Assembly: GCF_036785885.1 (NCBI RefSeq) | Contig: NC_092323.1 | Span: forward strand, 1,714,501-1,778,500 | Origin: Coffea arabica | Taxonomy: Eukaryota; Streptophyta; Magnoliopsida; Gentianales; Rubiaceae | Direction of reading: 5' to 3' | Length of the DNA: 64,000 bases | Shown here: positions 3,611-59,199 of the stretch, piece after piece | Position numbering within the stretch: position 1 is the first letter of the stretch | Layout of the letters: every line of letters begins with the position of its first letter | Made by a program: the position numbers and the translations under genes | Notes under the pieces: model-generated | What the model was told of the DNA's origin: nothing | Seen by the model: only the letters and a program-made list of their open reading frames with translations | Database searches by the model: none

Positions 3611-5299
3611 CCGGCCGGAAACCTTTATGGTAGGAAGCCTTTGACCATTCCTACCGTAGGCAGTCACTCAGAGCATGACACGTGTTGAAGTTCGATGGAG
3701 TGTAAACGGAGACGTTAAATTGTGGAAGAGCGCGTGAAGAGCAAACATTAAATTTTAGTCTGCGGCTACAAGCAAAAAAGCACACGTTCAGACTTTTTCC
3801 AATGTAGCAGGTTGGACCAAGGAAGGGTAATTGCATGTCAAAACCACCGGCATTTATGCATTTGCAAATGTACCCGTTAGCAACGGAAAAATACTGCAAA
3901 TGCCTTTGACAAAAAAATATGCGTAAAGAAGGTACTAAAGTTTTAACAATTAATAAATGTAAATATCACACGTGTCGGGGATAATAACTTGAAAGAAGGA
4001 AAAGTGGAGCAGAGGTAAACGTAGTAATTCCACGGCAACGCGAAACACAAAGAGATTGAAGCCTTCATTATATTTATATACATATATAAATTTAGTATTC
4101 AAGTGTTCAGCTTAAGCATCCGGGAAAATGGTCCCATAACTATCGTTACGGTAAACAAAACAGTTTTAGACATGATATAATAGGTTCTAAAAATTTTTGC
4201 GACCATTTGATTACCCGTTAGACCTATCCACTTAAATAAGATTATGAGTAAAAATAAGGAAGTAAATTTCTCATCTTAAATAGTAAATTAACGTAATAAA
4301 TTAGTAACTTTTGCAGTCCAAAAGGTAAATTGTAAGTAATATGAAACATACTTTTTAAAGAGATAAATTACAATAGTATATCTCAAATATATTTTTGAGG
4401 GGGTAAGTTTATTTGAAGTAAAAGTATGTTTTTATACATAAATAGTGATTTTTACTTATAACATAGTAAATTTGATTAATGACAAAAACATGCTAATTTA
4501 TGGCCAAAATATTGTATAATGCTTAAAAAACTTATACGAAACCCATATGTTATGAAATAACACTAAAATGTATTGTTAATGATTAAAACTGAGTACGTTA
4601 CTTAGTAAGTATTGTTAATATACTTGTATACATATTTGATCGTATGTGAATAAACAAGTATTTTTTAAATTTATAGGGAAATTAATTTTTTCTTTTGCAG
4701 TTTAAAAAAAAGTAAGCAAAAATATTTTTTCTCGGAGCACAAAAATCCACAAGTCAAAGTAATTGGTCTAAAAGGGAAAGAAACATTCTGAATATCATTG
4801 TTTACAGTACTAAGTAAATTAGATGTAAAATGCTCGTTAAAAGCAGGTGCGTTGACATATAATAAAGGAAAGCCATAAAGAGCAAGCCATTTACGGGAAA
4901 AGTTATCATTCATAAAAATAGCAACGCTTCACGGTTTTCTTATCAGTCTTGCAACGTATGAGCAAAGTGGCAATAATTAAAATAGTATTTTTTTAGATTT
5001 ATACATATTTCATTAATTTTTTTTGCATTTAAAAAAAAATGAACGAAAATGTTTTATGAGAAAGAACATAAGTCAAAAGGAATGGTCTAAAAGGGAAAAG
5101 AATAGCAAATACGTACCGTACTCGTAGTTCATGTTCGAAGGACTATATGGCTGTTTTTGAAAAATATCCTGAAAAATATGTAATCCAAACGGAACCGATT
5201 CTTCACTATTTAAAATGTCAAATCTGTGATTGTGTTTTAACTGTTATCCATTGGTATCCTAAAGTATCATTTTTCCATCAAATGCTACATCTTTAAAGA

Positions 5300-5520
5300 T
5301 GTTTTCCCATAAACAAATTTATTTAGCGGATAAAATACATAAAAATTCGTTTTTCAATAAAACACTAGTTCTTTATGGATTTCTTCCATTATAAGAATAG
5401 AGTACCCATTTTTCCATAAACAAATTTATTTATCGGTTGAAATAAAAATAAATCTATTTTTCAATAAAACACTAATTCTTTAACACTTTCCTCTATTATA
5501 AAAACAGAGTACCCATTTTA
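5300..5520 (-). repeat. Two 106-bp repeat units in left foldback arm (inverted)
   Basis: Two units containing CATAAACAAATTTATTT, AATAAAACACTA and AGAGTACCCATTTT. They are the reverse complement of the units at 6650-7620, which places them at the inner end of the left arm. Confidence 0.8.
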
Positions 5521-6649
5521 CCCCCTCTAGAAAAATTTTAGCCCCAGTGTAGAAAAAAATCTTAGCTTTGTCACTGACTGAAATGTTTGTAACTAAGATT
5601 TATCCATGGTGAATGTATGATACATAATTTTTTCACTGTATTCAATTTATATGATGACAAATTAAATGGGTCAATTGGATTAGTGAGCATCAGTTTTGTG
5701 AATGATTATGAGAGTAAACTATATTATGACAATAAAATACGTTGAATTGTGAAAATTTTAATTTAAACATACTCCTAAATTTTGGATATGTGACTTTCAT
5801 AGGTGCAAATTTTTTAAATTAACAGTTAGTTATTACTATGAGTAATGTGGTAAGTGTGAGATGTGAATGTCAGTTATTACTATCAGTAAAGTCAGCAATA
5901 AATGTGAGACATTAATTGAAATTTGCAGATATCATTTTACATGGGTGGTTATTATTTGTTAGTTAAAATTTAGGAGTTTTAATTTTATGGGTTAGTGGGG
6001 AAACCGTGAGGGAAATGTGGGAAAAACATGAGCATGAGTATAGGATTTGTACGAGCAGTTATAGGATTAGTTGTGACATAAACATTTCTGAATTTTAGAA
6101 ATGTAAAATTGTAATAAAATAGTATTCAGACTTTTGACAATTTGGAAAGCTCCTTATTCAAAATTCCCTCTGCAATACATATAGATAGATATAGATGTCT
6201 TTTTTTTAGTGGTTCAATCTCATATTCGTGAACTATCTGCACAAAAAAATAAAATTCTAGACTATTACCAACTCTATTATTCTTATTATTGTATTAATTG
6301 TTATACTATTTCTCTCATTTTGTTAGGTCAACATTAATACAAGTTTAATTATTATTATGTCTCGTGTCCCAGAAAATACAGATTATCTTATTTAGGTGGA
6401 TACGTCCAACAGATAATCAAATTGATGCTAAAAATTTAGAATGAATAAGTTGCTTTTACATAACGGTTGTAAAGATTTCTTGAAACTTTATGAATTAGGT
6501 GTCTTGCATTTGCAAAAAGAATTTCTAGCATATTTTTGTAATGGAAATGGACTTAAAACTTGCTATAGGTTATTTTCCTATATTTCAATTTTATCGTAGA
6601 GGGTAATTTGCTATTCAACCTAATTTTATTCTGATTTTATCCAACTAAT

Positions 6650-7625
6650 AAATTAACTTATGAAAATAGATAATTTATGGAGGAAAGCCATAAGTAGCTG
6701 GTGCTTTATTGAAAAATGAATTTATTTTTATTTTATCCAATAAATAAATTTATTTATGAAAAATGGGTACTCTGTTCTTATAATGGAGGAAAGCCATAAA
6801 GATTAGTGTTTTATTGAAAAACGGGTTTATTTTATTTTGTTTGACAAATAAATTTTTTAATGAAAAAATGGGTACTCTAGTGTTATAATGGAAAAAAGTC
6901 ATAAAGAGCTAGTGTTTTATTAAAAAACGGATTTATTTTTATTTTATCCGATAAATAAATTCGTTTATGAAAAAATGGGAACTCTGTTCTTATAATGGAG
7001 GAAAGTCATAAAGAATTAATGTTTTATGAGAAAATGAATTTATTTTTATTTTATCCGATAAATAAATTGATTTATGGAAATACAGGTACTGTGTTCTTAT
7101 AATGAAGGAAAGTCATAAAGAACTAGTGTTTTATTGAAAAATAGGTTTATTTTATTTTATCCGATAAATAAATCTTTTTATGAAAAATGGGTACTCTGTT
7201 CTTATAATGGAGGAAAGTCATAAAGAGCTAGTGTTTTATTCGAAAATAGATTTATTTTTATTTTATCCGATAAATAAATTGCTTTATGAAAATATGGGTA
7301 CTCTGTTCTTATAATACAGGAAAGCCATAAAGAGGTAGTGTTTTATTGGAAAACGAATTTATTTTTATTTTATCCGATAAATACATTTTTCTATGAAAAA
7401 ATGGGTACTCTATTCTTATAATGCAGGAAAGTTATAAAGAGTTAGTATTTTATTGGAAAATGGGTTTATTTTTATTTTATCCGATAAATAAATTTTTTAA
7501 TGGAAAAATGGGCACTCTGTTCTTATAATGGAGGGAAACTATAAAGAACTAGTGTTTTATTGCAAAATCGGTTTATTTTTATTTTATCCAATAAATAAAT
7601 TTTTTACGGGAAAATGGGTGTTAAA
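6650..7625 (+). repeat. Array of about nine tandem 106-bp units in right foldback arm
   Basis: The motif AAAGTCATAAAGA..TAGTGTTTTATT recurs near 6686, 6791, 6897, 7005, 7110, 7214, 7321, 7428 and 7536, a spacing of 104-112 bp. Each unit also carries TTTATTTTATCCGATAAATAAAT and GGGTACTCTGTTCTTATAATGG. Units differ by scattered substitutions. The array is tandem with no unique spacers. Confidence 0.9.
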
Positions 7626-9223
7626 GAGGTGGTATTTGATGGGAACATGATACTTTAGGATACCAATGGATAACAGTTAAAATACAATCACAGATTTGGT
7701 ATTTTAAATAATAAAGAATCGGTTCCGCTTGGATTACATATTTTTCAGGGTATTTTTCAAAAACAGCACTGTAGTACATATCTGCTATTCCTGTCCCTTT
7801 TAGACAAATTCTTTTGACTTATGTGCTTTCTGATAAAAAATTTTCATTATTTTTTTTAAAATGCAAGAAACAATTTAATTCTGTATAAATCAAAAAATTT
7901 ACTATTTCAACTATTGGCACTTTGCTCATTCTTTGGAGGTCTGGTAAGAAAGCCGTGAAGAGTTGGTATTTTTATTAATGAGAACTTTTTCCATAAATGG
8001 CCTGCTTTTTATGACTTTCCTTTATTATATGTCAAAGTACCAGTTTTTTACCAGCATTTTACATCTATTTGTTTAGTACTTTAAACAATGATATTCAGCT
8101 GTATCTTTCTTTTTCAGACCAACTATTTTGACTTGTGGAGTTTTGTGCTCTGTGCAAAAAAAATTTCGCTTACTTTTTTTTAAACTGCAACACAAAAAAT
8201 TTAATTATGTATAAATTTAAAAAATATTAATTTATTCACATATGATCAAGTATTTATACAAGTATATAAACAGTACTTACCAAGTAAGGTACTTAGTTTT
8301 AATTATTAATAAAACATTTTAGTGTTATTTCAAATAATAATAAAATATGGGCTTGGCATAAGTTTTTTAAGCATAATAGAATATTTTTGCCACAAATTAG
8401 CATGTTTTTGTTATTAATCAAATTTACTATGTTATAAGTAAAAATGATTATTTATGTATAAAAACATACTATTACTTTGAATAAACTTACTCCCTCAAAA
8501 CTATATTCAGGATAAAAATTGTAATTTATCTCTTTAAAAAGTATGTTTCATAATACTTTCAATTCACCTTTTGGGCTGTAAAAGTTACTAGTTTATTACG
8601 TTAACTTTCTATTTTAGATGACAAACTTACTTCCTTATTTTTACGCATAATTCTATTCAAGTGGATAAGTCCAACAGGTAATCAAATGGTTGCTAAAATT
8701 ATTATAACCTATTATATCATGTCTAAAACTGTTTTTTTACCATAACGATAGTTACTACTTCATTTTCCCACATGCTTAAGCTCAACACTTGGTACTAAAT
8801 TTATATATGTATATAAATTTAATGAAGGCTTGAATCCTTTCGTTTACCTCCACTTTTCCTTCTTCCAAATTATTATTCGCCACGCGTGTGCGATAATCAT
8901 TTATTATTTCTTAAAATTTCGGTACCTTCTTTACGCACATTTTTTGTCCAAGACATTTGCAGCATTTTTCCATTGGTAATGGGTACATTTACAAATACAT
9001 AAATGCCTCTGGTTTTAACCTGCAATAACACTTCCTGGCCCAACTCGTACGGAAGTCAGTGTGCTTTTTGGTTGTATCCGTAAACGATTCTATCTAATTT
9101 CCTCTCCACGCGCTATGCAACAATTTAACGTCTCCGTTTGGACTGTATGCACCCTAACACGTGTCGCTATTTGCCGGCCTTTCTACCATAGGCAGGTTCC
9201 TACCATAAAGGTATCCAAACCGG

Positions 9224-17454: not shown

Positions 17455-17765
17455 CTTTGCATGGTTTGCCTTGATCCCTTCACCCTCTTTCCTCCTCTCT
17501 TTTTTTTCTCCTCTTCCGCTGTCATAGGCCTATTTTTTCCTTTTCCCAAAATAAAAATTTATTTTTGTATGAAAAACAAAAACCAAGAAACTTTGTAACT
17601 AATCCCTTCTCTTTCTGTCTGTCTGTCTCTCTCTCTAGTTTTGCATGGTTTGCCTTAATCCCTTTCACTCTCTTTCTTTCTCTCTTTCCTCTCCTACTAC
17701 CAAGACCTATTCTTTCAGGTTGTATCATTGTACGAAAAACAAAAACAAGCATCTTTGCATCTGAA
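17455..17765 (+). repeat. Imperfect tandem duplication in EXO70 5' leader region
   Basis: Copy A (17455-17585) and copy B (17640-17765) both run from GCATGGTTTGCCTT, through a CT-rich stretch and a CCTATTYTTTC block, to GTAYGAAAAACAAAAAC. The second copy ends just before the ATG at 17768, so the duplication lies in the leader or core promoter of the EXO70 gene. CT repeats (17580-17640) separate the copies. Confidence 0.8.
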
Positions 17766-17767
17766 AA

Positions 17768-20068
17768 ATGTCTACCGTCGACACTGCAGAGAAAGAGAAA
17801 CCTCTGCCAGAAAATGTTTCTAGTTTTGGCTCTACTGCAAATGATGGCAATACTGACGACGCACAAGGCCACCAGGGAGGTCTTGATAATCAACAAAATC
17901 CAACGACTAAAGAAAATGGAAGCGAAAAAGCTGAATCACCCGATCAAAGCCATACCCCAAAAGAGCTTGGAACCGATAATCCACTCGATACCGAAAAGGA
18001 GCTGCCCACCGCGACAGGAGAAATTAACGAGAATGAGGAGGAGGTAGAGAAGGCGGTGGAGGGTGATCCAACAACAGAAGCGGCATCAGAGGTGGAAGAG
18101 CCTTCTCCTTTGCCTCCTGATCTGGGCAAGGTCTCGGAAGAGATTGACCAATACATCTCTTCTCTGTCAAACTCAAGCTTAAGCTCAAAGAATGATGATG
18201 AGAATTCCAATGTGCCTATATTTGTGGAGCAGTTTGCTGTTCTTTTTGAAGCCAAGATAGATGATTACGATTCAAGCGACAATCCTGTTAAATGGACCCG
18301 GCTGACAGACGAGGACTCTGCCTCATTCCTAGAAGCAGTGAACCGCGTTTCCAGACTATCAGCTTTGCTTTCTGAATTTTCGTCTGATTACAAGTACGCC
18401 TATTCCATCAACCGCATTGGTAGTGTTCTCCAGCGTGCAATGACTTATGTGGAAGAGGAATTCAGATCCCTCCTTGAAGAATACAAAATTCCCGATCATC
18501 AAGATCCGGAGACTGTTGTGAATAACCCTTCGTCGTCAAGCTCCTCCACCAATGCCCAGGACGGAGGGGAACAACCACCACGTCCTCCTCCTCCTACCGG
18601 CGTTGCAGCAGAAAATAATGATCCTCATCCTGAAGATACAAATAATAATGATAATAATAACAACAACGATAACAATGACAATCTTGGATACTCGGAAGAG
18701 ATATTGTCAGAATTGAGTAGATTAGCCAAGGCCATGCTTGTGGGAGGCTACGAAACAGAATGCTGCCAGGTCTACTTCATCGCGCGACGGAACGCGTTAG
18801 AGGAGACTATACATAAGTTTGGGTTTGAGAAGTTCAGCATTGACGACGTGCAGAAGATGAATTGGGAGTCGCTGGAGAGAGAGATCGAAGCGTGGATCAG
18901 AACATTCAAGCAGTTCGCCACCGTCCAATTCTCCAGAGAACGCAAGCTCGCGGATGCCATCTTCGTGGATCATGCAGCAATCCCCGAGGCCCTGTTCAGC
19001 ACCCTGCTCCGAGGCATGGTAGTCCAACTCCTCAATTTCTCGGAAGCTGTCGCCATGAGTAAGCGTGCCGCCGAGAAGCTGTTCAAGTTTCTGGACATAT
19101 ACGAGACCCTAAGAGATGTCCTTCCCAAGATGGACAACGGCCTACTGCCTCCTCAAACCCTGGACGAGATCAAGTCGGAGGCCTCCCTCACCCGAAGCCG
19201 GCTGGCTGATGCCGTGATCTGCATCTTCTGCGAGCTGGAGAACTCCATCAAAGCCGATGCTGGAAAGACCCCGGTTCCAGGCGGTGCAGTTCACCCCTTG
19301 ACTCGCTATACCATGAATTATCTCAAGTATGCGTGCGAGTACAAGGACACGCTGGAACAGGTGTTCAGAGAGCATCAGAAGATCGAAAGAGCGGACTCGG
19401 GTGCGGGATCAGAGTTCGACTACAACACTTCACAGGCTAACGCGGATGGAAACCAGAGCAATCAGAAAGCGGGGCAGTCTCCGTTCCAGGTGCAGGTGAC
19501 GAAGGTTATGGATCTACTGGACGCCAATCTGGAGGCCAAGTCCAAACTCTACAGGGATCTGTCGTTGAGTTCGATATTCATGATGAACAACGGGCGGTAC
19601 ATATTGCAAAAGATTAGGGGGGCTGGGGAGATGAACAGCTTGATGGGGGACACTTGGTGCCGAAAGAGGTCGTCGGAGCTGAGGCAGTATCACAAGAACT
19701 ACCAACGGGAGACCTGGGGGAAGCCCTTGAACTGCCTGATGAATCACGAGGGATTGAATGTAAACGGGAAGGTGGCGAAGCCGGTTCTCAAGGAAAGGTT
19801 CAAGAGCTTCAACGCAATGTTTGACGAGATACACAAGACGCAGAGTGCTTGGGTGGTTAGCGACGAGCAACTTCAATCGGAGCTGAGGGTGTCTATATCC
19901 AACATGGTGATACCGGCGTATCGAGCATTCATGGCCAGGTACGGTCAGTACCTGACGCCGGGGAGGCAGACCGAGAAGTACGTCAAGTACCAACCTGAGG
20001 ATATAGAAACATACGTTGACGAGCTGTTTGATGGGAACGCCACCCCGACTGGGAGAAAAAAGTTGTAG
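17768..20068 (+). CDS. EXO70B-like exocyst complex subunit
   Basis: A single-exon frame of 766 residues, as usual for plant EXO70 genes outside the A clade. Exo70 is an exocyst subunit that tethers secretory vesicles to the plasma membrane. The Exo70 C-terminal domain spans roughly residues 365-755. EXO70B-like signatures include ETECCQVYFIARRNALEE, IDDVQKMNWESLE, VVQLLNFSEAVAMSKRAAEK and LFKFLDIYETLRDVLP, and the end reads YVKYQPEDIETYVDELFDG. At 766 residues it is longer than Arabidopsis EXO70B1, recalled as about 624. The excess is an acidic, disordered N-terminus (residues 1-115), a Ser/Pro-rich segment (255-280) and an Asn/Asp run (292-305). The start was chosen at the first ATG, in an AAAA-ATG-T context. 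B-clade proteins act in immunity and autophagy-related transport; that role is inferred from family. Confidence 0.95.
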   Translation: MSTVDTAEKEKPLPENVSSFGSTANDGNTDDAQGHQGGLDNQQNPTTKENGSEKAESPDQSHTPKELGTDNPLDTEKELPTATGEINENEEEVEKAVEGDPTTEAASEVEEPSPLPPDLGKVSEEIDQYISSLSNSSLSSKNDDENSNVPIFVEQFAVLFEAKIDDYDSSDNPVKWTRLTDEDSASFLEAVNRVSRLSALLSEFSSDYKYAYSINRIGSVLQRAMTYVEEEFRSLLEEYKIPDHQDPETVVNNPSSSSSSTNAQDGGEQPPRPPPPTGVAAENNDPHPEDTNNNDNNNNNDNNDNLGYSEEILSELSRLAKAMLVGGYETECCQVYFIARRNALEETIHKFGFEKFSIDDVQKMNWESLEREIEAWIRTFKQFATVQFSRERKLADAIFVDHAAIPEALFSTLLRGMVVQLLNFSEAVAMSKRAAEKLFKFLDIYETLRDVLPKMDNGLLPPQTLDEIKSEASLTRSRLADAVICIFCELENSIKADAGKTPVPGGAVHPLTRYTMNYLKYACEYKDTLEQVFREHQKIERADSGAGSEFDYNTSQANADGNQSNQKAGQSPFQVQVTKVMDLLDANLEAKSKLYRDLSLSSIFMMNNGRYILQKIRGAGEMNSLMGDTWCRKRSSELRQYHKNYQRETWGKPLNCLMNHEGLNVNGKVAKPVLKERFKSFNAMFDEIHKTQSAWVVSDEQLQSELRVSISNMVIPAYRAFMARYGQYLTPGRQTEKYVKYQPEDIETYVDELFDGNATPTGRKKL

Positions 20069-22389
20069 CATTATTAATAGCATAAATTTGGTTTGATCAG
20101 ATTGTGAACCAGCAAATGAAACGCAAGCGCACCAGTTGAGATTAAGTTGTAGCATATGCTTTTGGTTTTGGTTTTGGTTTGATGAAGAGGTCAAATTTAT
20201 TAGTAAGTACGGATGGTCCCTTTGGTTTGTTGTCGATCTTGACAGTTGACACCGCTGGCTAGCTGTTCAGAATTTGACTGTCATGTGAACGAATTTCATC
20301 AGAATATAACAAAGTGAAGAAGAGAGATGCATGCATGGTGGCTAGGGCTAGGACTAGGGACTTCCCCAAACTCTCTTGCTTCACCGATACAGACCGGTTT
20401 CCCAGACATGTTTGTCGTCGTCGTCATCGTTGATGCCTGTAAACTGTAAACTGATCGTCCTCGATCCCTCTTAATTTCCGTCTTTTTTCTAAAATTTTTA
20501 GACTTATCCTGTTAGTGGTTACGTCGTTTCTTTTTTTGTTCCAAATGCAAAACATCATGAATCTGATTTTGTAATTTTGACTAGTTAGCTTGGATGATGT
20601 ATCTTTTTCGTAAAAGTAATTAGGAAAGTTTAATTACTCGTTAATTTATTTATTGAATGCTCTCATGTTCATATTCATTCTCCTTTTCCTGTTGAGCTTT
20701 CATCCATGTTAACCAAGTCTCGTATTAATGCTACATTACTCCATTTTCCCTAGGATTTAAGGAGTAGATCTTTCAGCAGTTCTGGTTCATACATGGGATT
20801 GTCAGTGCCACCTTCTAGTCGCAACTAAATGCCCTATTTATTTAAATTATTATCTACTCTTTAATTTTTTTAATAACTCAAGTTGGTTTGATTTAACTCA
20901 AGTTTTCTTCATTGCAACTTCTATAATTATGTCAAGCATCCTATTCATTTAAATTGTCACGTGCTCTTTAATTTTTTTTAATAACTAAAATTGATTTTTG
21001 AGTTTATTTTACCTTCACGTGATAAATGGGATTGGCACTGAATTTGACACAAATATCGAGGATCCCAATTGGTTCATGGTCGCCCAGCATGCGTTGATAT
21101 GCCACCATTTACAAATTCAGGTGGAAATTGCGAGCCAAAAAATGAGGCTGATCAGAAATGCGGAGAGAACTCTGTTGCTTCATCAGTAGCAGAAAAGGAA
21201 GATCAACAAGCAAAAGAGAGACGAGCATATCAGAGAAGAAAAATGAAGTCTATGACTACTCACTCTTTCTTACCCTACTTTTGCTTTGAATAATTGTTTT
21301 CATAGTTAACATATTGACCTTTTTGCAAACAAATATTTGCTCCAATAATTATTTTCATGGTTGACATATTAACCTTTATACCAACAAATATATCCTCAAA
21401 TAATTATTTTTCATAGTTAAATTATTAACCATTTTACCAATAAATTATATGAAAAAAAATCGCCCTTTAAAGACTGTGTGGAAGGAGTCCTCTATATACA
21501 GATTCAAGGCTAAGATTATATTTATTGAGGAAGCTGCGGAAGATCAATCATCATAAGGACTCAAACAGATGAATTAATTTACTTATGAGCCGCAAGACAA
21601 AATTCGTGACTCTGACCACTGTCATTAATGCACGACTTTGTTCTTGTTTGGAGATTAAATTACTGTCTTGAATTTGGAAGCCAAGTCCCAGAACAATTTT
21701 GCCGTAACTTCATGGCTGGCTCCTCTGTTTTGTAAGCGAGGAGATGAATATAATGGTGTTTTAGGTGTTTGGCGTTGACCTAACAAATGTTCAGTTACTT
21801 TGATTGCTTGATCGCAATTTTTTTTAAAGATACGTATTGGCTTTTACACGAACTGTGTGTTAGCTCTTGCTTTAGATTAGTGCTCATAAATACGTCGGCT
21901 AAGAAACATGGAGGCCTTTAGTTTGACTGCTTATCAACAAAGGCCATTCCAATTGAGGTTTGAGATCTGTGGGAACTATTGCTCCTGGAGTCATTTTGCA
22001 TCCTTAGACATTTCTGCATTTTCAACTATTATGTGCCCAGAATAGAGATTCATTTGGCTCGTGATTTTTTTGTGGATGCCTGTTTTGAGTTGTTGTGGAC
22101 CTTTAATCAGGTTTTAGCTTCCCAGGATGATGATCGCCTCTGACAACTGATCCTGATGAACTGATTGATTTCGAGGATAATGAAGGGACAACTAAGTGGA
22201 GATGGAGGAAGATATTTTCAGAAAGAATCCTTCTTTCTAAGAGTAGGATTTCAGCTGACTCGCGGAGACAATCCTTCGCAGCCACAGGTCGCATGAAGAG
22301 AGAATGGCTGGATTGGTTTAGTAGACTGAAATTGTATTAGTAAAATGTTTCTTTCCTCTGCAAATGATCTGAATCATTCTTTCCTGTAT
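20069..22389. other. Intergenic DNA with small direct repeats
   Basis: Contains a (TTTTGG)n run at 20159-20180 and two related copies of TTTAATTTTTTTAATAACT (20859 and 20970). An open stretch at 22151-22339 (DPDELIDFEDNEG...WLDWFSRLKLY) is unrecognised and may be a gene remnant. No supportable gene was found. Confidence 0.5.
21291..21455 (+). repeat. Three tandem 55-bp units
   Basis: Units start at 21291, 21346 and 21401 with TAATTRTTTTCATRGTT, then ATTAACC or ATTGACC, then ACAAATAT. The third is the most diverged. Confidence 0.85.
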
Positions 22390-22398
22390 TTTTACTTT

Positions 22399-22520
22399 GG
22401 GAAAATCGCCATTTTAGTCCTTGAACTATTTTACTTATGCCAATTTCATCCCTTAATGTTTTTTTAGCCTAATTTAGTCCTTCAACTTAAATTTATTGTC
22501 CAATTAAATCCTTTTACGGT
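22399..22520 (+). repeat. Left terminal inverted repeat of Pack-MULE
   Basis: About 118 bp that pair with 24030-24148 almost base for base, including TTAGTCCTTGAACTATTTTA and TTAAATTTATTGTCCAATTA. Confidence 0.92.
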
Positions 22521-22719
22521 GGTGCCACCCACTAAACCTTTTCCGACATGAAAAAACGCTACCTAACCAAGGGCAAGAATGGAAGTACAAGTCATGTCCT
22601 ACGTTAAAATAAAGAAATATGAAAAATTTTCATCTAATGGGGTAAAACAAAAATTTTACACTAAATTGGGGAGAAAAACAAAAATCTGCAAAAGAAGTGG
22701 CTGGAATCCGGCAAACTAG

Positions 22720-22790
22720 TTATCTGCTGGTTAACGGAATCACCATGGTGATTCATGAAACTACACTCTTTCGTGATAACCAGCAGATAA
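22720..22790. repeat. Hairpin inside Pack-MULE
   Basis: TTATCTGCTGGTTA (22720-22733) pairs perfectly with TAACCAGCAGATAA (22777-22790). The loop contains TCACCATGGTGATTCATG, whose complement recurs in the PPR fragment near 23698-23720. Confidence 0.85.
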
Positions 22791-22802
22791 CGGAATCACC
22801 AA

Positions 22803-23082
22803 ATGAGAAAAATCCCACAACGAAGGCGAGAAAATAGCACCGCCTGGGAAGGGGCTTTCGTGACTCTGGGTCTTCCAGCAATCCTTCCTCCTCAATCACG
22901 TCACACTCTTTCCACAGTTTTTGGCCCTTATGGCTAGGGTGCCTATTCCCACCCGATCCGCCATCGTTTGGGTTGATCTTCCTCGATCCAGGCTTGAGGG
23001 AGCCGGAGAAGCGGCTGGTAGACGACTCCCTGGAGTGATGGCCGACGGAGAAGTGAGAGTAGGGTGGCGAGCCCGCCGAATC
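22803..23082 (-). pseudogene. Captured LEA_2 / NHL-type protein fragment (At5g42860-like)
   Basis: The minus strand reads SPPYSHFSVGHHSRESSTSR, then FSGSLKPGSRKINPNDG, WKECDVIEEEGLLED and PLPRRCYFLAFVVGFF, then loses similarity. This matches the juxtamembrane region and the start of the membrane helix of plant LEA hydroxyproline-rich (NDR1/HIN1-like) proteins such as At5g42860, as recalled. The real gene's N-terminus and the whole LEA_2 domain are absent. The frame is still open, so capture may be fairly recent. It lies antisense to and directly abuts the PAP2 fragment. Function as a protein is not expected; an antisense transcript is conceivable. Confidence 0.8.
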
Positions 23083-23099
23083 CACCCATCCAAACCTGC

Positions 23100-23485
23100 A
23101 AAAAATGGGTTCAACGTCCCCAACAATTCTACCATCATCCTCCGCCACCTTATTAAATTTGACACTGCCCTTTCCCTCTGCCCAACAATCCTTACAGTTT
23201 CCTCAAATTCCTCGAATTCTCAGGGAACGGTCACCTCTTCTGCCCTCTAATCCTCTCCCTCCTCCTCTACCCTCTCTCGACCACCGCCGCCACTGCCAAC
23301 CGTTTTCTCCTCGACCTGTTTTTAGGAGCACTTCTGGACATCCTCCTCATTGGCCGCCTCAAACATCTCATCCGCCGCCCCCGACTCATCTCCAACAAAA
23401 ACATGTTTGTGTCTTTTGCCGTCGACCACTGGTCTTTTCCTTCTGGCCATAGTTCTCGAGTTTCCTTTATTGCCCTTTCTTAATT
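23100..23485 (+). pseudogene. Captured PAP2-family lipid phosphate phosphatase fragment
   Basis: The plus strand begins ATGGGTTCAACG and, with one frameshift in the region 23160-23200, reads LEFSGNGHLFCPLILSLLLY, LLDLFLGALLDILLIGRLKH, LIRRPRLISNKNMFVSFAVD and HWSFPSGHSSRVSFIALS before a stop. RRPR and FPSGHSSR resemble the acid-phosphatase (PAP2) signature motifs 1 and 2 of lipid phosphate phosphatases. Motif 3 and the C-terminal helices are missing. It corresponds to the first part of a small plant phosphatidic-acid phosphatase-like protein. The frameshift, truncation and position between MULE repeats make it a captured pseudogene rather than a working enzyme. Confidence 0.85.
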
Positions 23486-23589
23486 GCTGCATTGTTTTTT
23501 TCCAGAGGATTCATTAATTGGGGTAAAATCTTGTGTGATTGTCATAAAAACAGCTCATTTGTGAGATATTTTTGTGAGCAGCTTTTTTT

Positions 23590-23810
23590 GCTTAATATGC
23601 ACTCTACATTGTGTGTAGTTCTTTGTTCAATATGTTTTCTAGATTGCATTTTGTCGAAAAAGCCGGAAAAGTGTTTGATGAAATGCTTAAAAGAATTGTA
23701 GTTTCATGAATCACCATGGTTTTCTGGGTATGCGAACACTAGACAGGCTAGACTTGCTAAGGAGGCATTTCAAGTTTTTCAACCCTTATTTGATGGAAGG
23801 TAGATAAACG
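23590..23810 (+). pseudogene. Captured pentatricopeptide-repeat (PPR) gene fragment
   Basis: The plus strand reads LFNMFSRLHFVEKAGKVFDE and MLKRIVVS, then TGA where PPR proteins usually have TGG (the W of VVSW). It continues ITM and, after a frameshift, SGYANTRQARLAKEAFQVFQ. The order NM(Y/F)S..., KVFDEM, VVSW, SGYA, A..A..F is the hallmark of PLS-class PPR repeats. Only about two repeats are present. It is disrupted by a stop and a frameshift, so it is a captured, decayed fragment. Confidence 0.75.
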
Positions 23811-24029
23811 ACTTGAACGAATTTTTTTAGAACTTTTGATGATACTGGTGATGGTCCTGGAGAGAACTTTTGACAATCTCTATTTTCTATCCCAATTTGG
23901 TCGAAATTTTGTTTTTCTCCCCTTTTTAGTTTTTTGGGTTCTAGCTTTGGCCCTTGCTTTGTAATTCCTGGATTGCCCTTAATTGGGTGGTGATTTTGTG
24001 CCGGAAAAATTGTAATTGGTGGTGCGTTC

Positions 24030-24148
24030 CTGAAAGGATTTAATTGGACAATAAATTTAAGTTGAAGGACTAAATTAGGCTAAAAAAACATTGAGGGATG
24101 AAATTGGCATAAGTAAAATAGTTCAAGGACTAAAATGGCGATTTTCCC
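24030..24148 (-). repeat. Right terminal inverted repeat of Pack-MULE
   Basis: Reverse complement of 22399-22520. It ends ATGGCGATTTTCCC immediately before the second TTTTACTTT target-site copy. Confidence 0.92.
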
Positions 24149-24157
24149 TTTTACTTT

Positions 24158-48592: not shown

Positions 48593-48720
48593 AACCACTC
48601 TTTCAATTAAAAATAAAATATCATATTTGTCATTCAATATAATTTAAAAACATAAAAAGGATAGGCACTTTAATAAAAGACCAACATTAGTGGTACTTCC
48701 CTTCCAAAACTCCCAAACAA

Positions 48721-49603
48721 GGGATAATTTCAGAAACCTTCCTTGAAATTTTTGACTATTTTACTGGCCTTCTTTCAAATTTTAAAAATTACTCTAATTT
48801 CCTTTGAGATTAATTACATTGTAACATTTAGACCCAATCGATAATTAAAAAGTGATATTAGAAGAGAGAAGATAATATAATTTCATCATTATCCCTCATC
48901 TATTACATTATTTAATTAATTTAATCGTAATCCATACATTAAAAAATGTACTAAATTTTGATGTTTATCATTAGGGATCAAATCATATATAGTATCAAAA
49001 AAGTAGTATATCTTTTTTTATTTTTCACTTAATACAATATCCAAATTACACTTTTCAATTACATACTCATTATCAAACATAATCAACAATAAATAATCAA
49101 AAAATTTGCAACCAAAATATTGCAGAGAGCAAATTTTAACATCATAAATATTCTTGTGTAGTTGTTGAAATTTTTATGGTATTAAACTTCACATTTTGTA
49201 ATATTTTAGTTACAGATTTTTTTATTATTATTTGTAGTTGATTATGTTTGATAATGACTTTCTCACTAAGAAGAGCAATTTATATCTTATATTAATTAAA
49301 ATATACAGAATGATATACTATTTTTGATGTCATATGTGATTTAATCTCTAATGATAAACATCAAATTCTATTATTTTTTTATTAATGCTTGGACGGGTAT
49401 TAGATTAATTAAATAATTTAGTAAATCAAGAACAACAATGAAATCATATTATTTTCTCTCTTTTATATTATTTTTTAATTGTTGGTTGGAGGTATATATC
49501 ACAAGATAATAAATCTCAAGAGAGATTAGTGTATTTTTTTAAAATCTAAAGGGAGCCCAGTGGAATAGTTAGAAACTTTAGGGACGTTTATGAAATTATC
49601 CCC
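48721..49603. mobile_element. 0.9-kb TIR element upstream of RPL7a copy 1
   Basis: Starts GGGATAATTTCAGAAACC and ends TTTATGAAATTATCCCC, giving inverted termini. A second copy occupies 57508-58400. The related block at 55890-56050 looks like an empty site, which supports insertion. There is no coding capacity. Confidence 0.8.
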
Positions 49604-49610
49604 AAGCAAC

Positions 49611-49618
49611 TAGGGTTT
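49611..49618 (+). promoter_or_regulatory. Telo-box, distal (RPL7a copy 1)
   Basis: TAGGGTTT, the complement of AAACCCTA, immediately after the TIR element. Telo-boxes are typical of plant ribosomal protein promoters. Confidence 0.6.
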
Positions 49619-49703
49619 CTCTGCACTTCCATTCTCTGCTTTTCTTTTTTAATTTAACCTTTCTCATCTTTTCTTTTCTATCCTAAACTCCCAAACTAAG
49701 CCC

Positions 49704-49711
49704 TAGGGTTT
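49704..49711 (+). promoter_or_regulatory. Telo-box, proximal (RPL7a copy 1)
   Basis: TAGGGTTT within CCCTAGGGTTTTTG, 44-51 bp upstream of the ATG, just after pyrimidine-rich DNA. Confidence 0.65.
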
Positions 49712-49754
49712 TTGACGTCGCGCCGTCGTTTCTCCAAACCCCTCAGGCAACGAA

Positions 49755-51681
49755 ATGGTAAGGCGGCTCTTCACCACCAAGTTATTTCTGTCTTCTCGAT
49801 GATGATTGTTGCTGATACACATATATGCAGATGCTGCATTCTAATTTCCAATCTTTCGTTTGGTTTTGAAAAAACCGACAACTCTCTGACATTTTGATTC
49901 CTTTGTGTTGTCATTGATGGATGATTTTTTTGTTTTGAAGGCTCCAAAGAGAGGTGCGAGGGCTCCAGCTGCAGTGGCGAGGAGGAAAACCGAGAAGGTG
50001 GCGAATCCTCTGTTCGAGAAGCGTCCGAAGCAGTTCGGAATTGGAGGAGCCCTCCCACCGAAGAAGGATCTCACCAGGTTCGTCAAATGGCCTCTCAACG
50101 TCCGGATCCAGAGGAAGAAGAGGATCCTCAGGCAGCGCTTGAAGGTTCCTCCGGCGCTCAACCAGTTCTCCAAGACTCTCGACAAAAATCTTGGTCACCT
50201 CTCCCTCACTCGCTTTTTATTTATTATGTTGTTTCCCTTTTTTCTTAATGTTATAATATGATTTTTATCGGGACTCTGAGTTCTTCACCTTGATTGCACC
50301 ATCTTGACAACCCTGGTCTGGTATTTTACTGCTATAAAGAAAAATCCAGTTATTTTCTTGACATAAATCTGTGCTCTCTCGCATATTGATCACCTATTGC
50401 ATTTGTAATCCTACTTCAAATGCTTACTCATTCTTATTCTCCCCCCCCCCCGGGCGGATGATTGCGTAGAATAGGATCCCATGGTTGAGCAGGGCAAACG
50501 GTGTTGCTGTGACTAAATAGGAAATGAAATCTTTACGTAAATTTAAAAATCATTCTTTTATGGTTCTTATCCAACTCGATATGCCAGATGTGGTAAATAG
50601 AAAGAAATTGAGGTTGCTCGGAGCATAATATTTGTACATGGTAACTGTAGTTTGTTTTCCCCTATAATCTCTTGGATTACTAGAAACTGAGTCGTAATGT
50701 TTTGCTCTATCTGTTGTCATGAAATTGGTAAAAGCTAATAATTTGCTGTGGTAGATTTGAGGGAGTCTCTAATTTTGTCCCTATTTTATTAATACCAGTC
50801 AAGGAGATATCTTGTTTCCTTTCGGGGTTGCCATTTCACTGCTTCGTTTTTTCTCTTGCCAATGTATGTATTTTCTGATGCTTCCTTTGATATGCAGCAA
50901 CAAATCTGTTCAAGATGCTTCTCAAGTACAGGCCTGAGGACAAGGCAGCCAAAAAAGAGCGTCTTCTCAAGAGAGCTCAAGCTGAGGCTGAAGGGAAAGC
51001 TTCTGATGCTAAGAAGCCAATTGTTGTCAAATACGGTTTAAAGCATGTGACGTACCTTGTTGAGCAGGTCTTTATCCTACTTTTCTTCTATACTCTGTTG
51101 GTTTTCTGTAGTGTCTCACTCTTGGTAGTGCAAGCTGTGGCTCATAGAAATTATTTTCTGCAGAACAAGGCACAATTGGTGGTTATTGCTCACGATGTGG
51201 ACCCAATTGAGTTGGTTGTTTGGCTTCCTGCTTTGTGCAGAAAGATGGAAATTCCCTATTGTATTGTGAAGGGAAAATCGCGATTGGGAGCGGTAAGTTT
51301 CCCTCTTTGTGGAGCCTTTTTGGAAGCTTTTATTGTAGCCAGGACTGATGTAATTCACACTCTCTCGCAGATTGTTCATAAGAAAACTGCATCAGTCTTG
51401 TGCCTGACCTCAGTGAAGAATGAAGATAAGTTGGAGTTCTCGAAAATTTTGGAGGCCATTAAGGTGATGCATAATTTCGTAGGGGTTGTACAAGTAATGA
51501 TATTTCCTTGCCTTAAAAACTCATCTGACATTATGATTTCTCCTGACAGGCTAACTTCAACGATAAGTATGAGGAGTACAGGAAAAAGTGGGGTGGTGGA
51601 GTCATGGGGTCCAAATCTCAAGCAAAAACCAAGGCGAAGGAGAAGCTTCTTCAAAAGGAAGCCGCTCAGAGGATGTCTTAG
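49755..51681 (+). CDS. RPL7A: 60S ribosomal protein L7a (eL8), copy 1
   Basis: Six exons: 49755-49757, 49941-50193, 50898-51067, 51164-51292, 51371-51463 and 51550-51681. They total 780 bp and 259 residues, the family's usual length. The first coding exon is only the ATG, followed by GTAAGG; exon 2 supplies [20 protein letters not shown]. The conserved core includes [20 protein letters not shown], the kink-turn-binding L7Ae segment [40 protein letters not shown] and [11 protein letters not shown], and the basic tail [20 protein letters not shown]. It is a structural protein of the large ribosomal subunit and is needed for early pre-rRNA maturation. No disabling mutation was seen. Two telo-boxes lie upstream. 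Confidence 0.97.
50442..50453. repeat. Poly-C run in RPL7a-1 intron 2
   Basis: A C-run followed by GGGCGG. Copy 2 instead has TCCTCTTTCCCCTG at the equivalent place, so this is one of the main intron differences between copies. Confidence 0.85.
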
Positions 51682-53133
51682 AAAGAGCGATTTTCCTCCT
51701 TGTCCTGATTTTTATTTGCGGCTTTAGATTTTTTGCTTCTGACATACATATGTATTTTTGGTAGACATTTATTTGGCATGTTTGATTATCAAAACTTCGT
51801 GCAATAGTTAAATTTTGTGTTGACTGCTTGCTTTATGAATGGTAGTTGTTTCCTTGAGTTGTGGCTAATGGTATCGGAGAACCATAAATGATGTTGGCCG
51901 AGTTTATAATTGGCATTGAGCGCGGTTTGGTTGGTCATATTTGGGCCGCTTGACTGGTGAGAAAGAACTGTGTGTTAAGGACCTGCGGACTAGTTTGAGA
52001 GTTTAGGAAGGGAAAGAGAAAGAAGGCAAAACTTTTAATGGGGAGAGAGGGGAAGAGAGTATCTCTCTTAAGTTGTTTGGGAGTATTGGCTGGAAAATGT
52101 CATAATGTTGGACCTTTGCTCATGTTCCATTCTCGTTGTCTGTTTGAATTATATGTCAGGGACAAATATGAGGTTTAATAGTTCCCTTATTTAAGTGTTC
52201 ATTCCACCTCTTCCCGCTAATGGGAGGGGAAAAAAGTGGGAGTGGGTAGGCTTAAGAATTCTTCCACTTCTCTTGGGAAATGTTTATTTATTTAGTTTGG
52301 GAGAATGAATGTTTATTTTTCCCTTTGAAATATAAACATTTTCATTAAAACATTTAGTACCCAATAAGCCAATTGATTTTTTTATGAGGCTGAAAATGCC
52401 AAATGGGCATTGAGGTCGTGGATCTCCCTGTAAAGATGAATCAGGGAGATCTGTCTGGTCTTGAGAGGCTGGTCAGCATGCAGCTTATTTGGTTGCTTAG
52501 ATGGATATTCTTCTTAAATTGAGAAGAAAGAATCACGATCAGGAATTGGGTATGTCTACTACCGCCGGCTGCTCTGATATCAAGATTCCCTGTTGCAACT
52601 AGTCTTCCGTTCTTGCCTGTCACTGAACTGAATTTCGCAAGATCGTGTCGTCCTCTCTGCTATGTTTAGTGAATTTAATTGTTTGTCAATAATCGCCCTA
52701 AGGTCAATGCGGGTGGAGACTGCTGATGCTACTATACCACCAAGGATATGCTCTAGCTTGCAAAATGGATCAACTTAGGACCCTCTTAGGGTTGAAATCA
52801 CATGTTACAAAGTAATACATAGGCTACTAAGGAAGTTAAATCCCATTTTCACAGTTTGTAAAGCTTAGATTACGCAGAAAGAGTTGATTAATACGAGATC
52901 CTCGTATTACCCTTTGTGCGGAGATATAGATCATGCTCAATCTCTCTAGTTGGCTCAGCATGATGGTTTTAAAAAATAAGAGATTAAGCAGGGGACACAG
53001 CCAAAAGTTTTAGCCTCAGTTTCAGCACTGATCATTGTGCATATTTACATGACAACAGTGAGACATATATAATACACGTCAATAATGAGATTAAAAATAG
53101 TGAGATACACATATATACAAACCTACTCAGCTA

Positions 53134-53387
53134 TTACAGATTAAACAATTTACGTTTCATTTTATTCTTCACAAAATCTAGAGCTACTTGGATACAAGCC
53201 AAATTAAATGCCAGTTCTCGCTTTTCTTTCTGCTTGGCCTGGTGCTGGTTGGAAAAAAAAAAAAAAGGAATAAATGGCAGAGATAACTCTTTAGGTATTC
53301 GACAGCAGTACTTCCCCTGACCGCGAGAGGACGATGTATTATCCTGAAGGAGGATAAACATTGGATCATTGTCAGAAAGACTAAGCT
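53134..53387 (-). pseudogene. Truncated copy of the unidentified minus-strand gene's 3' end
   Basis: The minus strand reads DNTSSSRGQGKYCCR, an intron-like T-rich gap, then HQAKQKEKRELAFNLACIQV and ALDFVKNKMKRKLFNL before a stop. It matches 63552-63807 and is cut at the duplication boundary. The presumed donor after CCR reads AT in place of GT here, so this copy would also be splice-defective. Function is unknown. Confidence 0.4.
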
Positions 53388-55067
53388 TGTTTTGAACTGT
53401 CTTGTTTACTTTTAACTGGTTTTAGCTGATTTTAAGCTAAACAAAGTCAATCAAGGTAAGGCAGCCTTTTTCCAACAATGGCTTCTCTTTGAGTAGCTTA
53501 GAAAGGTTTGAGCAGATTAGGACAGGCCCTAAAAGCATTAAGACTTAAAACTGGTGATTGCCACATGTATTCCAATTTTACCACCTCAAGAAAAAGCCCA
53601 CTTCAGCCCTTGCTACCGCAATGATCAAAGAGTTTTGACAAAGCAACAACTGTTTTAGCAAGGACTAGGTACCTCGAGTGCCATGGTGCTTGAGGTTCTC
53701 ATTTTCCTTGGTTTGAAATTCTTGCCAACAGCAGAAAACAGTGAAAAAGGGGGAAAAAAATCTCACACTATGCAAAGCCAAGATAAGCGTACAAGCCAAA
53801 AGAAGATCCACCTACATAGGCTACATTCCCTGGACAAGCCGCCAAAAGACTTTCACGCGGCAATTTCTTCAAGAACTACTAAACAGATCTCATTCTCAGT
53901 CAATTGAACTACTAACGGTTGCGGATTTCACAAGTTGGAAATACCGTCAGTCGATGAATTGAATGTGCAAGAGAAAAGGCGGTGAGGAATTGGTACAGGG
54001 CCAGTTTAGCTTCGAGTAGGTCCTCGGCTTGTAATATCCCTGGTTCCAGAACCACATCCGACGGGATAGAAATCAAATCAAGGGCAAGCAAATACGTCCA
54101 CCTACAGCCTTAACGCTTTGAATTATGGACCCTCTTCGAGAAACATTGCCTTGTGCGAGAATTAATTACGTAGTAACTAGTTGATAACCCTTCTCATCTT
54201 AATTTTACTAGTCATTTTACTCTTGTTACTGCCATTGGCTGCTGCCTTTTTGCCCCATTCTTTGTCGCCAATCTAGCAACTGCAGTCTACAGCCAAAATG
54301 CAGTTTCTGTGATAACCCTAATTTGCAGCATTTCTGCTAGAGATACAAAAAATACGATTTACGTAACTTTTTTATCCTTTTTTTTTTGCTGTACTATGCT
54401 TTTAATACCATTTCAGTAGTTACGTATTTGCCGCTGAAAAAGGATTATTTCCTCTTAGGTAAAGTTTATCTTTTTGCTGTTTGGATTGCAAATTTATCTC
54501 AAATAATATTTCGCTTGTATCATAAACACATCTCACAATCCACCTTTTTATATTCTCAACTACTTTTTATCTCACATACATCACATCACAAAAAGTGCTA
54601 CAGTAATTATTCCAAATAATATTTCAAATAATACTCTATCCAAACACATGTATACATTTAGTAAGTGCTTCAACATCTAAATACGATTAGATTATAAACC
54701 TTTGTGACATATGCGGGGGATCACTCAATTATTCATATCTCCAACCGTAATAATCACAACGAGTTGAGTTCTAACATTATTACTGATTACATTTTCCAAT
54801 CAAAGAAATTCAGACGGCAATTAAACATGAGTTTCATGTTGATGTGTCATATAAGAAGGCCTGGTATGCTCAACAACATGCCATTAATATCGTGTATGGC
54901 TATTTGCCCACCTCCATAGTTAAACTTTTTATATATATACGGGAATTAGTGACGGTAAATCTAAGCATGTCTGTAGTTTGGAAATACCATCCACATAGTA
55001 TTATTGGCTGCACAATTTTTCACTTTGTGTTTTGTGCGTTTGACAGCGCCATCCCAATTGCTACCAA
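53388..55067. other. Intergenic DNA after duplication copy 1
   Basis: Apart from the MITE at 54478-54646, no gene or repeat was recognised. The small open frames around 53683-53962 lack features. Confidence 0.45.
54478..54646 (-). mobile_element. MITE, GTTTGGATAG family, copy 2
   Basis: Inverted relative to copies 1 and 3. It begins TGTTTGGATTGC and ends ACTCTATCCAAAC, with internal TTTTTATCTCACATACATCA and AGTAATTATTCCAAATAATA. Confidence 0.85.
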
Positions 55068-57023: not shown

Positions 57024-57507
57024 AAGGGGATAAGTGATATTTTTAAAAATTTAAAGGTGTTAAATAAAATTATAAAAAATCTCAAGGAGATTTCTTAAAT
57101 TATCCCCAACATAAAAACAAGAGGTGTAGGGTTTGTGGAATGGATTGTGGTTTTTGTTGGGTTGAAAAAAAAGGTGAAGGTAGTCTTTGTAATCTGTTTG
57201 GATGGAAGGAAAAGAAAGAAGAAGAAAGGATTTGGAGAAAAAAATTTGAAAATCATAAGTTTGGGAGTTTTTAAACGGGAGAATGAAAAGGAAAATAATG
57301 GAAATGAAAGGATTCTTTTCCTTTTAAAACACCTACTAACTTTTTCGACCAAAAGTGGGATGAAATGGAAGGAAAACTCAACCACTTTTGCAACTAAAAA
57401 TTAAATATCATATTTGCCTTCAAATATTATTTAAAAACATAAAAAGGATAGGCACTTTAACAAAATAGCAACATTAGTAATGTTTCCTTTCCAAAACTCC
57501 CAAACAC

Positions 57508-58400
57508 GGGATAATTTCAGAAACCTTCCCTGAGATTTGTGACTATTTCACTCGCATCCCTACAAATTTTAAAAATTACACTAATCTCTCTTAAGATTAA
57601 TTACATTGTAACATTTAGGCCTAATCGATAATTAAAAAGTGATATTGGGAGAGAGAAAATAATATGATTTCATCATTACTCCTCATCTACTACATTATTT
57701 AATTAATTTAATCCTAACCCACACATTAAAAAAAGCACTAAAATTTGTTATTTATCATTAGAGACTAAATCACATATAGTATCAAAAAATAACATATCAT
57801 TTTATATTTTTCACTTAATACAAGATCAAAATTACACTTTTTAGTTACATATTTATTGTCAAACATGATCAACAATAAATAATCAAAAAATTTGCAACCA
57901 AAATATTACAGAGAATAAACTTTAACATCATAAATATTCTTGTCAATATAATAAAGTTAGTTGCTGAAATTTTTATGGTATTGAACTTCGCATTTTGTAA
58001 TATTTTGGTTACAAATTTTTTTGATTATTTGCAATTGATTATGTATGATATTGGTTTTGTGACTAAAAAGAGCAATTTATATCTTACATTAATTAAAATA
58101 TATATAATGATATATTATTTTTGATACCATATGTGATTTGATTTCTGATGATAAACCTTAAATTCTAATATTTTTTTGTTAATGTTTGGACGAGTATTAG
58201 ATTAATTAAATAATTTGGAAAATTAGGGGCAATGGTGAAATCATATTATTTTCTCTCTTCTATATCATTTTTTAATTGTTGATTGGACGTAAATGTTACA
58301 AGATGATAAATCTCAAGAGAGATTAATGTAGTTTTTAAAATCTAAAAAGAGACCAGTAAAATAATCAGAAACTTTAAAGGAGGTTTCTGAAATTATCCCC
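57508..58400. mobile_element. 0.9-kb TIR element upstream of RPL7a copy 2
   Basis: Same element as 48721-49603, at the orthologous position of the duplication. It ends GGAGGTTTCTGAAATTATCCCC, so it was present before the duplication. Confidence 0.8.
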
Positions 58401-58525
58401 AAACAACTAGGGTTCTCTTCAATTCTTTTCTTTGCTTTTCATTTTTAATTAACCTTTCTAATCTTTTCTTTTCTATCCTCAACTTCCAGAGGCTTTGTTT
58501 GGGAGCTGAGAATTTGGTCCAGAAT

Positions 58526-58680
58526 GTTTGGATAGAATATTATTTGGAATAATTACTGTATTACTTTTTTTGATGTGATGTATATGAGATAAAAATGTTA
58601 TTGAAAATATAAAAAGATGGGTTGAAAAATGTGTTTATAATGCAAATAAAATATTATTTGAAATAATCTGCTATCCAAAC
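58526..58680 (+). mobile_element. MITE, GTTTGGATAG family, copy 3, in RPL7a-2 promoter
   Basis: Bounded by GTTTGGATAG and CTATCCAAAC, a perfect 10-bp inverted terminus. It is absent from the matching position of copy 1, so it inserted after the duplication. Confidence 0.88.
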
Positions 58681-59199
58681 ACTTCCTTAGTTTTCCTTTT
58701 TTTTGTTAGTTTTTAGTAAAAAAAGAAAAGAAAGGAAATGGGAGAATTTCGAAGGATAAAAAGTAGCCAAAATTTTTCCTTCCAAATTGGACGAAAATGA
58801 AAAGAAATTTTGAGGAAACTTGTCAAATTTTTTGAAAATGCCCATTTTATCCTTAAAATGGTTTTGAATAAATATTTAATGACTTTCATATCCAAAATCA
58901 TTTTACTAATTCTAAAAACTCCCAAATAATATAAGGAAAATTTGCCAATTTGGTCCCTAGCATTTTCACAAAAAAAACTTTTTTAGTCCCCAACATTTAA
59001 AATCATCCAGAATCGTTCCTAACATATAAATTATGATCCATTTTGATCCAAATGCTCGTATTTACTCATTTTTCCGACTGAAAATAGCACGTCTCTCTCA
59101 CGTGGGCATATTTTTAAGAGTAAAATCAAAAAACGCACTTCATTTCCGATTGAAAACAAAAGTATCTCTTTTCACCTTTCCCCCTAAAACTACAGTTAC

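Follow-up and report, generated by a model that had tools for sequence, protein, structure and literature searches.

Successive capture of PPR, PAP2 and CC1-like gene fragments by a Pack-MULE lineage of Coffea arabica

Pack-MULEs are non-autonomous transposable elements that carry pieces of host genes between terminal repeats of typically 100-500 bp, are flanked by target-site duplications (TSDs) of 9-11 bp and, in some cases, are present in multiple copies (PMC3310237). Elements that draw on several sources are already known (PMC4858842; PMC8903248). For example, 264 putative chimeric genes derived from MULEs in O. sativa japonica have at least two parents, compared with 1,186 that have at least one (Table 2, PMC4858842). 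Pack-CACTA and other Pack-TYPE elements likewise hold cargo from several loci, and the data on them have been called compatible with a more internal position of newer DNA (PMC8903248). The acquisition of genes by Pack-MULEs has been described as "yet to be understood" (PMC3310237) and as "perplexing" (PMC8277862). Capture by template switching is the basis of the gap-filling and FoSTeST models of animal Pack-TIR elements, whose applicability to plant Pack-MULEs is called "worth exploring" by the same authors (PMC8277862).

The Coffea arabica element described here is the same in kind as the Pack-MULEs of rice, tomato, Arabidopsis and maize. It differs from them in that one genome retains both an element of an earlier stage and donor-like loci for each of the three captured pieces, and in that a later piece lies inside an earlier one. 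It shares with the Oryza chimeric genes the presence of multiple parent genes per element; however, those genes were required to have annotated intact ORFs, whereas no selected ORF was found in the Coffea arabica element (PMC4858842). Unlike Pack-CACTA and Pack-TYPE elements, it has termini and 9-10 bp TSDs of the Mutator type, and neighbouring insertion is disfavoured as its mode of capture. The lineage is a plant test case for the gap-filling and FoSTeST models, with which it has the deduced switching of templates in common. No earlier account of stepwise Pack-MULE capture was found among the titles and abstract openings searched, a partial coverage from which no claim of unpublished status is drawn.

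The element is a non-autonomous Mutator-like element of 1,750 bp, at positions 22399-24148 of the window, which is the 64,000-nucleotide stretch of contig NC_092323.1 that was analysed (Table 1). Its terminal inverted repeats are identical at 116 of 118 positions, the mismatches being positions 56 and 117, and the terminal similarity extends, diverged, as a subterminal repeat to about 285 bp. The TSD TTTTACTTT matches at 9/9 bases at both flanks, and identical 9-mer pairs at this spacing occur at 3 of 62,182 window positions. Sites resembling the terminal 22-mer (up to three mismatches) number two in the window and are the two ends of the element. These dimensions fall within those of MULEs, whose terminal inverted repeats measure about 100-500 bp and whose TSDs measure 9-11 bp. 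Transposase coding sequence was absent from nine translated frames of the element searched against Pfam; only the PAP2 and PPR families reached E<0.1, and the next-best match (E=0.12) was to an unrelated family. Rfam gave 0 matches at gathering thresholds across 20-27 kb of the window, and viral contigs held no confirmed relative of the CC1 piece or of the exact terminal 22-mer. One gene fragment lies on the minus strand and two on the plus strand. Since the element holds host-gene fragments with parental loci elsewhere (approximate only, at 74-75%, for the PPR piece), contains no transposase and exists in multiple copies with differing TSDs, it is a true Pack-MULE that draws on three different genes. 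The initial annotation had proposed just this, a Pack-MULE with fragments of three unrelated genes, inverted 118-bp termini and a perfect 9-bp direct repeat, and is supported by the termini, the TSD, the donor-like loci and the other copies. The terminal repeat is indeed present elsewhere in the same genome, where the best 40 of 369 candidate matches were scored.

Table 1. Features of the Coffea arabica element and its flanks, in window coordinates.
Feature	Position	Strand	Basis
Left target-site duplication TTTTACTTT	22390..22398	.	flank comparison
Left terminal inverted repeat, 118 bp	22399..22516	+	self-comparison; scored matches elsewhere in own genome
Left subterminal (diverged extended) repeat	22517..22683	+	match in 24/24 fetched elements
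Fold-back repeat arm 1, 15 bp perfect, left capture junction	22719..22733	.	self-comparison
14-bp remnant of PAP2-capture 5' edge, left of CC1	22728..22741	+	exact match to PAP2 gene locus L067 5039-5026, E=0.004 alone
24-nt inverted copy of a section of the PPR piece in the same element	22742..22765	-	self-comparison; two bases specific to the PAP2-bearing clade
Fold-back repeat arm 2, 15 bp	22777..22791	.	self-comparison
Captured part of exon 1 (putative), CC1-like (companion of cellulose synthase) gene	22807..23078	-	94%/93% donor-like loci
Captured 5' part of PAP2 / lipid-phosphate-phosphatase-like gene, frame-shifted	23079..23481	+	Pfam, donor loci
PPR-derived region, common to 24 fetched elements	23482..23867	+	Pfam, nearest genes, element comparison
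Right subterminal (extended) repeat	23907..24030	-	self-comparison + fetched elements
Right terminal inverted repeat, 118 bp	24031..24148	-	self-comparison
Right target-site duplication TTTTACTTT	24149..24157	.	flank comparison

Other features of the window lie outside the element. An Exo70-family reading frame is located upstream of it at 17765-20065 (Exo70_C E=2.8e-121). At 3677-9165, inverted arms of about 1.8 kb (82%) surround a repeat array (6625-7619) with a spacing near 107 bp; the 8-bp flanking match of this pair, ACACGTGT, is palindromic and may be due to chance. Finally, duplicated segments at 48593-53389 and 57380-63807 are 86-94% identical, and each has one ORF (50891-51727 and 61924-62757), which we take to be ribosomal-protein-L7a-like.

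Donors and copies were searched for in the window's own genome, comprising 1,197,963,845 bases (1.2 Gb). Protein matches and donor-like loci with open frames were found for all three pieces, two loci each, and Pfam confirmed one PAP2 and one PPR locus. The 272-bp CC1 piece is 94% identical to C20:5091716-5091987 and 93% identical to C19:3734450-3734721. These loci have open stop-to-stop frames of 208 and 202 aa, respectively, and both frames contain MHAKTDSEV, RPVYYVQS, FHSTPILSPA, FSGSLKPG and PWKECDVI. The copy in the element retains the last two of four tail motifs (FSGSLKPG and PWKECDVI) and presumably the start of a membrane helix. The donor frame is probably exon 1 because further similar frames lie downstream. 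In Arabidopsis, the microtubule-binding tail of CC1 contains RPVYYVQS, FHSTPVLSPM, FSGSLKPG and QWKECAVI (PMC6382854), and At5g42860 and At1g45688 have been named companions of cellulose synthase (PMC12540249). The donor ORF carries the cytosolic tail motifs expected of a CC1 source gene. This piece had been annotated as a minus-strand LEA_2/NHL fragment; the strand and its fragmentary nature stand, but the label is loosely right at most and CC1-like is more exact. No Pfam LEA_2 domain was detected in the captured piece or in three separately tested, unspliced ORFs of the donor locus L077. Searched against PDB sequences, the PAP2 and CC1 pieces gave nothing better than a match to an unrelated entry (E=0.041).

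The PAP2 piece stops just past the motif FPSGHSSR, and its frame is broken in the element. Its Pfam match (E=4e-4) is under the curated cut-off, and reading across the frame break brings no higher score (20.1 versus 20.5 bits). Donor-like loci on C16 and C15 are 85% identical to it in DNA. Their frames, measured from stop to stop, are 239 and 243 aa long, and the C16 frame contains a PAP2 domain (E=1.4e-20). In the PPR-derived region, protein similarity spans 23611-23824 and is interrupted by an in-frame TGA and a frameshift. Pfam again places the match under the curated cut-off (E=2.5e-4), and reading past the stop with the start trimmed scores no higher (19.2 versus 21.5 bits). The nearest PPR genes have open frames that run for 753 aa on C3 (PPR_2 E=2.3e-70) and for 733 aa on C4; their DNA identity of 74-75% makes them candidate relatives of the source, the match being too weak to prove that either is the source itself. 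Both plus-strand fragments were thus recognized correctly at the outset, the PAP2 phosphatase fragment by its FPSGHSSR motif. The interval 23481-23650 was considered as AT-rich sequence of other origin and rejected, as copies carrying PPR alone place it in the PPR-derived region. In the 17 elements without CC1 (L048-L064; for example, L050 at about 1640-2030), some 330 bp lie to the right of the PPR piece. No source gene was found for this stretch, for which 17 of 17 scored matches are these same elements, and it has been lost from the CC1-bearing copies.

The distribution of the three pieces among related elements provides a record of their order of capture. Twenty-four further elements were fetched, giving a comparison set of 25 with the window copy; the PPR region is present in 25/25 because it was the criterion of selection. 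CC1 and PAP2 were searched for independently, with all candidates scored (10/10 and 12/12, respectively). CC1 occurs in 8/25 elements and 2 gene loci, as well as in a second piece of one element, and PAP2 in 10/25 elements (the eight with CC1 and two more) and 2 gene loci. The other 15 elements have the PPR region and neither PAP2 nor CC1. A tree was built from alignment columns of the termini, the subterminal repeats and the PPR region, 909 out of 1,098 being kept, and was rooted on the three most divergent elements. In this tree, the eight CC1-bearing elements form a clade (support 100/100) nested within a clade of the ten PAP2-bearing elements (100/100); the relative closeness of the two PAP2-only elements to the CC1 clade is tentative, with a support of 82/69. 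Identity to the nearest genes drops stepwise in the same order, from 93-94% for CC1 to 85% for PAP2 and 74-75% for PPR.

The copies also document repeated movement. A strict TSD rule (9-11 bp, exact ends, at most one mismatch) is satisfied by 21 of the 24 fetched elements and by 3 of 432 shifted controls. All eight CC1-bearing copies have TSDs of 9-10 bp with at most one mismatch, each of a different sequence. Their mean pairwise difference is 0.037, and the window copy is nearest to C12_2.02, at a difference of 0.016. The genome is rich in MULE transposase domains, with at least 150 scored among 2,147 candidates, counted as domains alone and irrespective of termini.

Flanking sequences bear on the age of these insertions. 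Homologous flanks are found in the PPR-only pairs C1/C2 (one side), C3/C4, C5/C6 and C13/C14; C5_41.45 is an extra copy of the C5/C6 pair, and C3_41.0 and C9_2.05 are near-identical elements. Among the ten PAP2-bearing elements, no flank is common on both sides; C12_2.02 and C21_42.0 have one flank in common at 74%, and C12_4.14 and C11_55.2 have flank pieces of 34-99 bp in common with C5 elements. Because flanks are paired in PPR-only elements and not in these ten, the pattern fits older insertions that would predate a genome duplication and newer ones that would follow it. As a separate observation, the old elements L063 (C9:2.05 Mb) and L064 (C3:41.0 Mb) have flanks that are 99.6% and 94% identical, as would result either from a segmental duplication of recent date or from a region duplicated in the assembly. 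An empty site for the window insertion was also sought, and none was demonstrated. The left flank has matches on C11, C12, C15 and C16 (78-85%) and to 64 bp of C22, and not on C13; the right flank consists of repetitive sequence with 54 matches. The left-flank interval 21966-22304 is low-copy, its main pieces being 78-82% identical on C11, C12, C15 and C16, with none on C13, a place where one could expect a duplicate.

The junctions show how each piece sits within the earlier ones. In PPR-only copies, the left subterminal repeat continues directly into the PPR-derived stretch. In PAP2-bearing copies, PAP2 takes the place of the start of that stretch, with an identical right breakpoint in 9/10 and a deletion in C10_45.6. 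PAP2 probably entered at the edge of the PPR piece or inside it, the choice between the two turning on a match of about 14 bp. In CC1-bearing copies, the 5' edge of PAP2 is split: 14 bp stand on the left side of the CC1 piece, and the body of PAP2 adjoins its right end. Between the 14-bp PAP2 piece and CC1 come, from left to right, the 24-nt inverted PPR copy, the left-junction fold-back and a short repeat. These CC1 junctions are identical in the eight copies, except for deletions in C21_42.0 (left) and C10_45.6 (right), and CC1 was therefore captured once. Of the two PAP2-only elements, C4_28.9 retains the PAP2 5' stretch undivided by CC1 (49 bp, 88% identical to the gene), though an insert peculiar to this element breaks into the stretch that CC1 entered elsewhere. 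In C15_41.8, which lies outside the CC1 clade in the tree, that stretch is gone; its lack of CC1 could reflect deletion, because the site of CC1 entry was lost with it. PPR, PAP2 and CC1 were thus acquired in this order, CC1 lies inside PAP2, and the element has transposed repeatedly.

Two of these elements have features of their own. C4_28.9 (L048, C4:28916600-28921100) holds an insert of about 950 bp (at about 431-1388) that has an A-run end, is flanked by GACCAACTAAC and is like a non-LTR retroposon. About 130 bp past the C10_45.6 element, a second, diverged terminal repeat (73%) is present at about 2693-2798 of L047.

The last junction preserves an additional footprint. The 24-nt inverted PPR copy matches 23697-23720 of the same element perfectly. 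Its positions 2 and 15 are G and T, the bases that the PAP2-bearing clade also has in its PPR piece; in the 12 main-group PPR-only copies these positions are A and C. The template was therefore the element lineage itself. The copy is recognizable in 7/8 CC1-bearing elements and absent in C21_42.0.

Taken together, these observations make it highly probable that three successive captures, PPR, then PAP2, then CC1, were followed by spread. A MULE would have captured the PPR piece first, PAP2 would have been captured at or inside the 5' part of that piece, and CC1 would then have entered the 5' part of PAP2; the element so completed would have reached at least eight sites. Each capture may have arisen when DNA synthesis across an internal break or gap changed its template to a gene at an unlinked locus, and in the last capture also back to the element itself; this switching is deduced from the footprints. 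MULE transposase would have been provided in trans, and the copies would be mostly silenced, their gene pieces drifting as passengers. The further reading of the locus as a three-step record of break repair, jumping to unlinked genes and copying from itself, so that capture is repair-driven, separable from insertion and cumulative, appears to us evenly balanced between right and wrong. If true, each new fragment would land in or at the edge of the preceding one.

A different mechanism, capture through neighbouring insertion, has been put forward for Pack-TYPE elements (PMC8903248), but it is unlikely to have operated here. The CC1 piece is enclosed by cargo acquired before it, PAP2 sits within or at the margin of such cargo, and self-comparison of the window element revealed no internal terminal repeat. 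Moreover, in the 9.0-9.5 kb searched for PPR and PAP2 and the 3.3 kb searched for CC1, none of the six donor-like loci matches the terminal repeat over a long stretch, the best matches spanning 20-38 bp (E>=0.006).

Somewhat less likely still is that the gene pieces are not passengers, as proposed above, and that selection maintains the element as a working chimeric gene or as a regulatory locus, such as an antisense source for CC1 or PAP2 genes. The CC1 frame is stop-free in 8/8 copies and has no indel apart from the first 31 bp missing in C10_45.6, and the element has perfect 21-mers in common with CC1 and PAP2 genes. The pooled replacement/synonymous ratio among the eight copies is 0.39, a figure given less weight because simple counting ignores the spectrum of base changes; likewise, 6 of the 9 changes common to all eight copies relative to both genes are synonymous, which counts for less because the constrained gene branch is included. 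That branch also enters the donor comparisons, and CC1 dN/dS against the gene L077 (0.15-0.36) was for this reason ruled out as evidence of selection. Among the eight copies, 16 synonymous, 24 replacement and 0 stop changes were counted. Replacement changes are no rarer than expected under neutrality, as a spectrum-matched draw predicts 14.3 synonymous changes (P=0.34), and zero stops occur in 30% of such draws. CC1 divergence (0.043 per site) is close to that of the termini (0.038) and within the range of other segments (0.012-0.048). Furthermore, the 149-aa minus-strand CC1 frame of the window copy lacks a methionine, and the PAP2 and PPR frames are broken. The changes in CC1 among the copies therefore fit neutrality.

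Of the 210 rare changes counted over the whole element, 143 belong to the class C>T/G>A, which is 5.7 times as frequent per base as A>G/T>C. Their rates are 0.37 per CG, 0.31 per CHG and 0.13 per CHH site. This excess at CG and CHG suggests a footprint of cytosine methylation, as read from the base changes themselves.

Transcripts of the element may affect some of its source genes. RNA made from the plus strand would have the antisense orientation for CC1 and the sense orientation for PAP2 and PPR, and RNA made from the minus strand the opposite. Perfect 21-mers in common with the window copy number 79 (C20) and 47 (C19) for CC1, 53 for each of the two PAP2 loci and 0 for each PPR locus. Counts range from 8 to 98 per CC1-bearing copy for the two CC1 loci and from 13 to 85 per PAP2-bearing copy for the two PAP2 loci; with the two nearest PPR loci, 25/25 elements have none. 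On this basis, silencing of CC1 and PAP2 genes by element RNA is possible. For the two nearest PPR genes, silencing through perfect matches is not supported because no 21-mer is common to them and the elements. The suggestion in the initial annotation of chimeric or antisense RNA against three gene families was thus too strong, RNA that targets all three being unlikely from the sequences.

Assembly of all three pieces in a single catastrophic repair event, to which the complex left junction with several short switches and the possible origin of C15_41.8 as a deletion product rather than an intermediate would lend themselves, is very improbable given the 15 PPR-only elements, the PPR and undivided PAP2 5' stretch of C4_28.9, the nested stages of the tree, the graded donor identity and the other sequence that PPR-only copies hold at the present PAP2 site, and it would require CC1 and PAP2 to have been lost repeatedly and the PPR sequence to have been restored.

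What sets the successive captures of this lineage beyond routine is that their order is preserved and that the last junction contains self-templated filler. The parts of the last event lie side by side in one genome: C4_28.9, a CC1-free element with the entry stretch, eight CC1 copies with a single set of junctions, and CC1 genes with open frames. The event can therefore be reconstructed at the level of bases, and not inferred from finished products. Cargo in such elements can accumulate over time, and the presence of pieces from several genes need not imply function.
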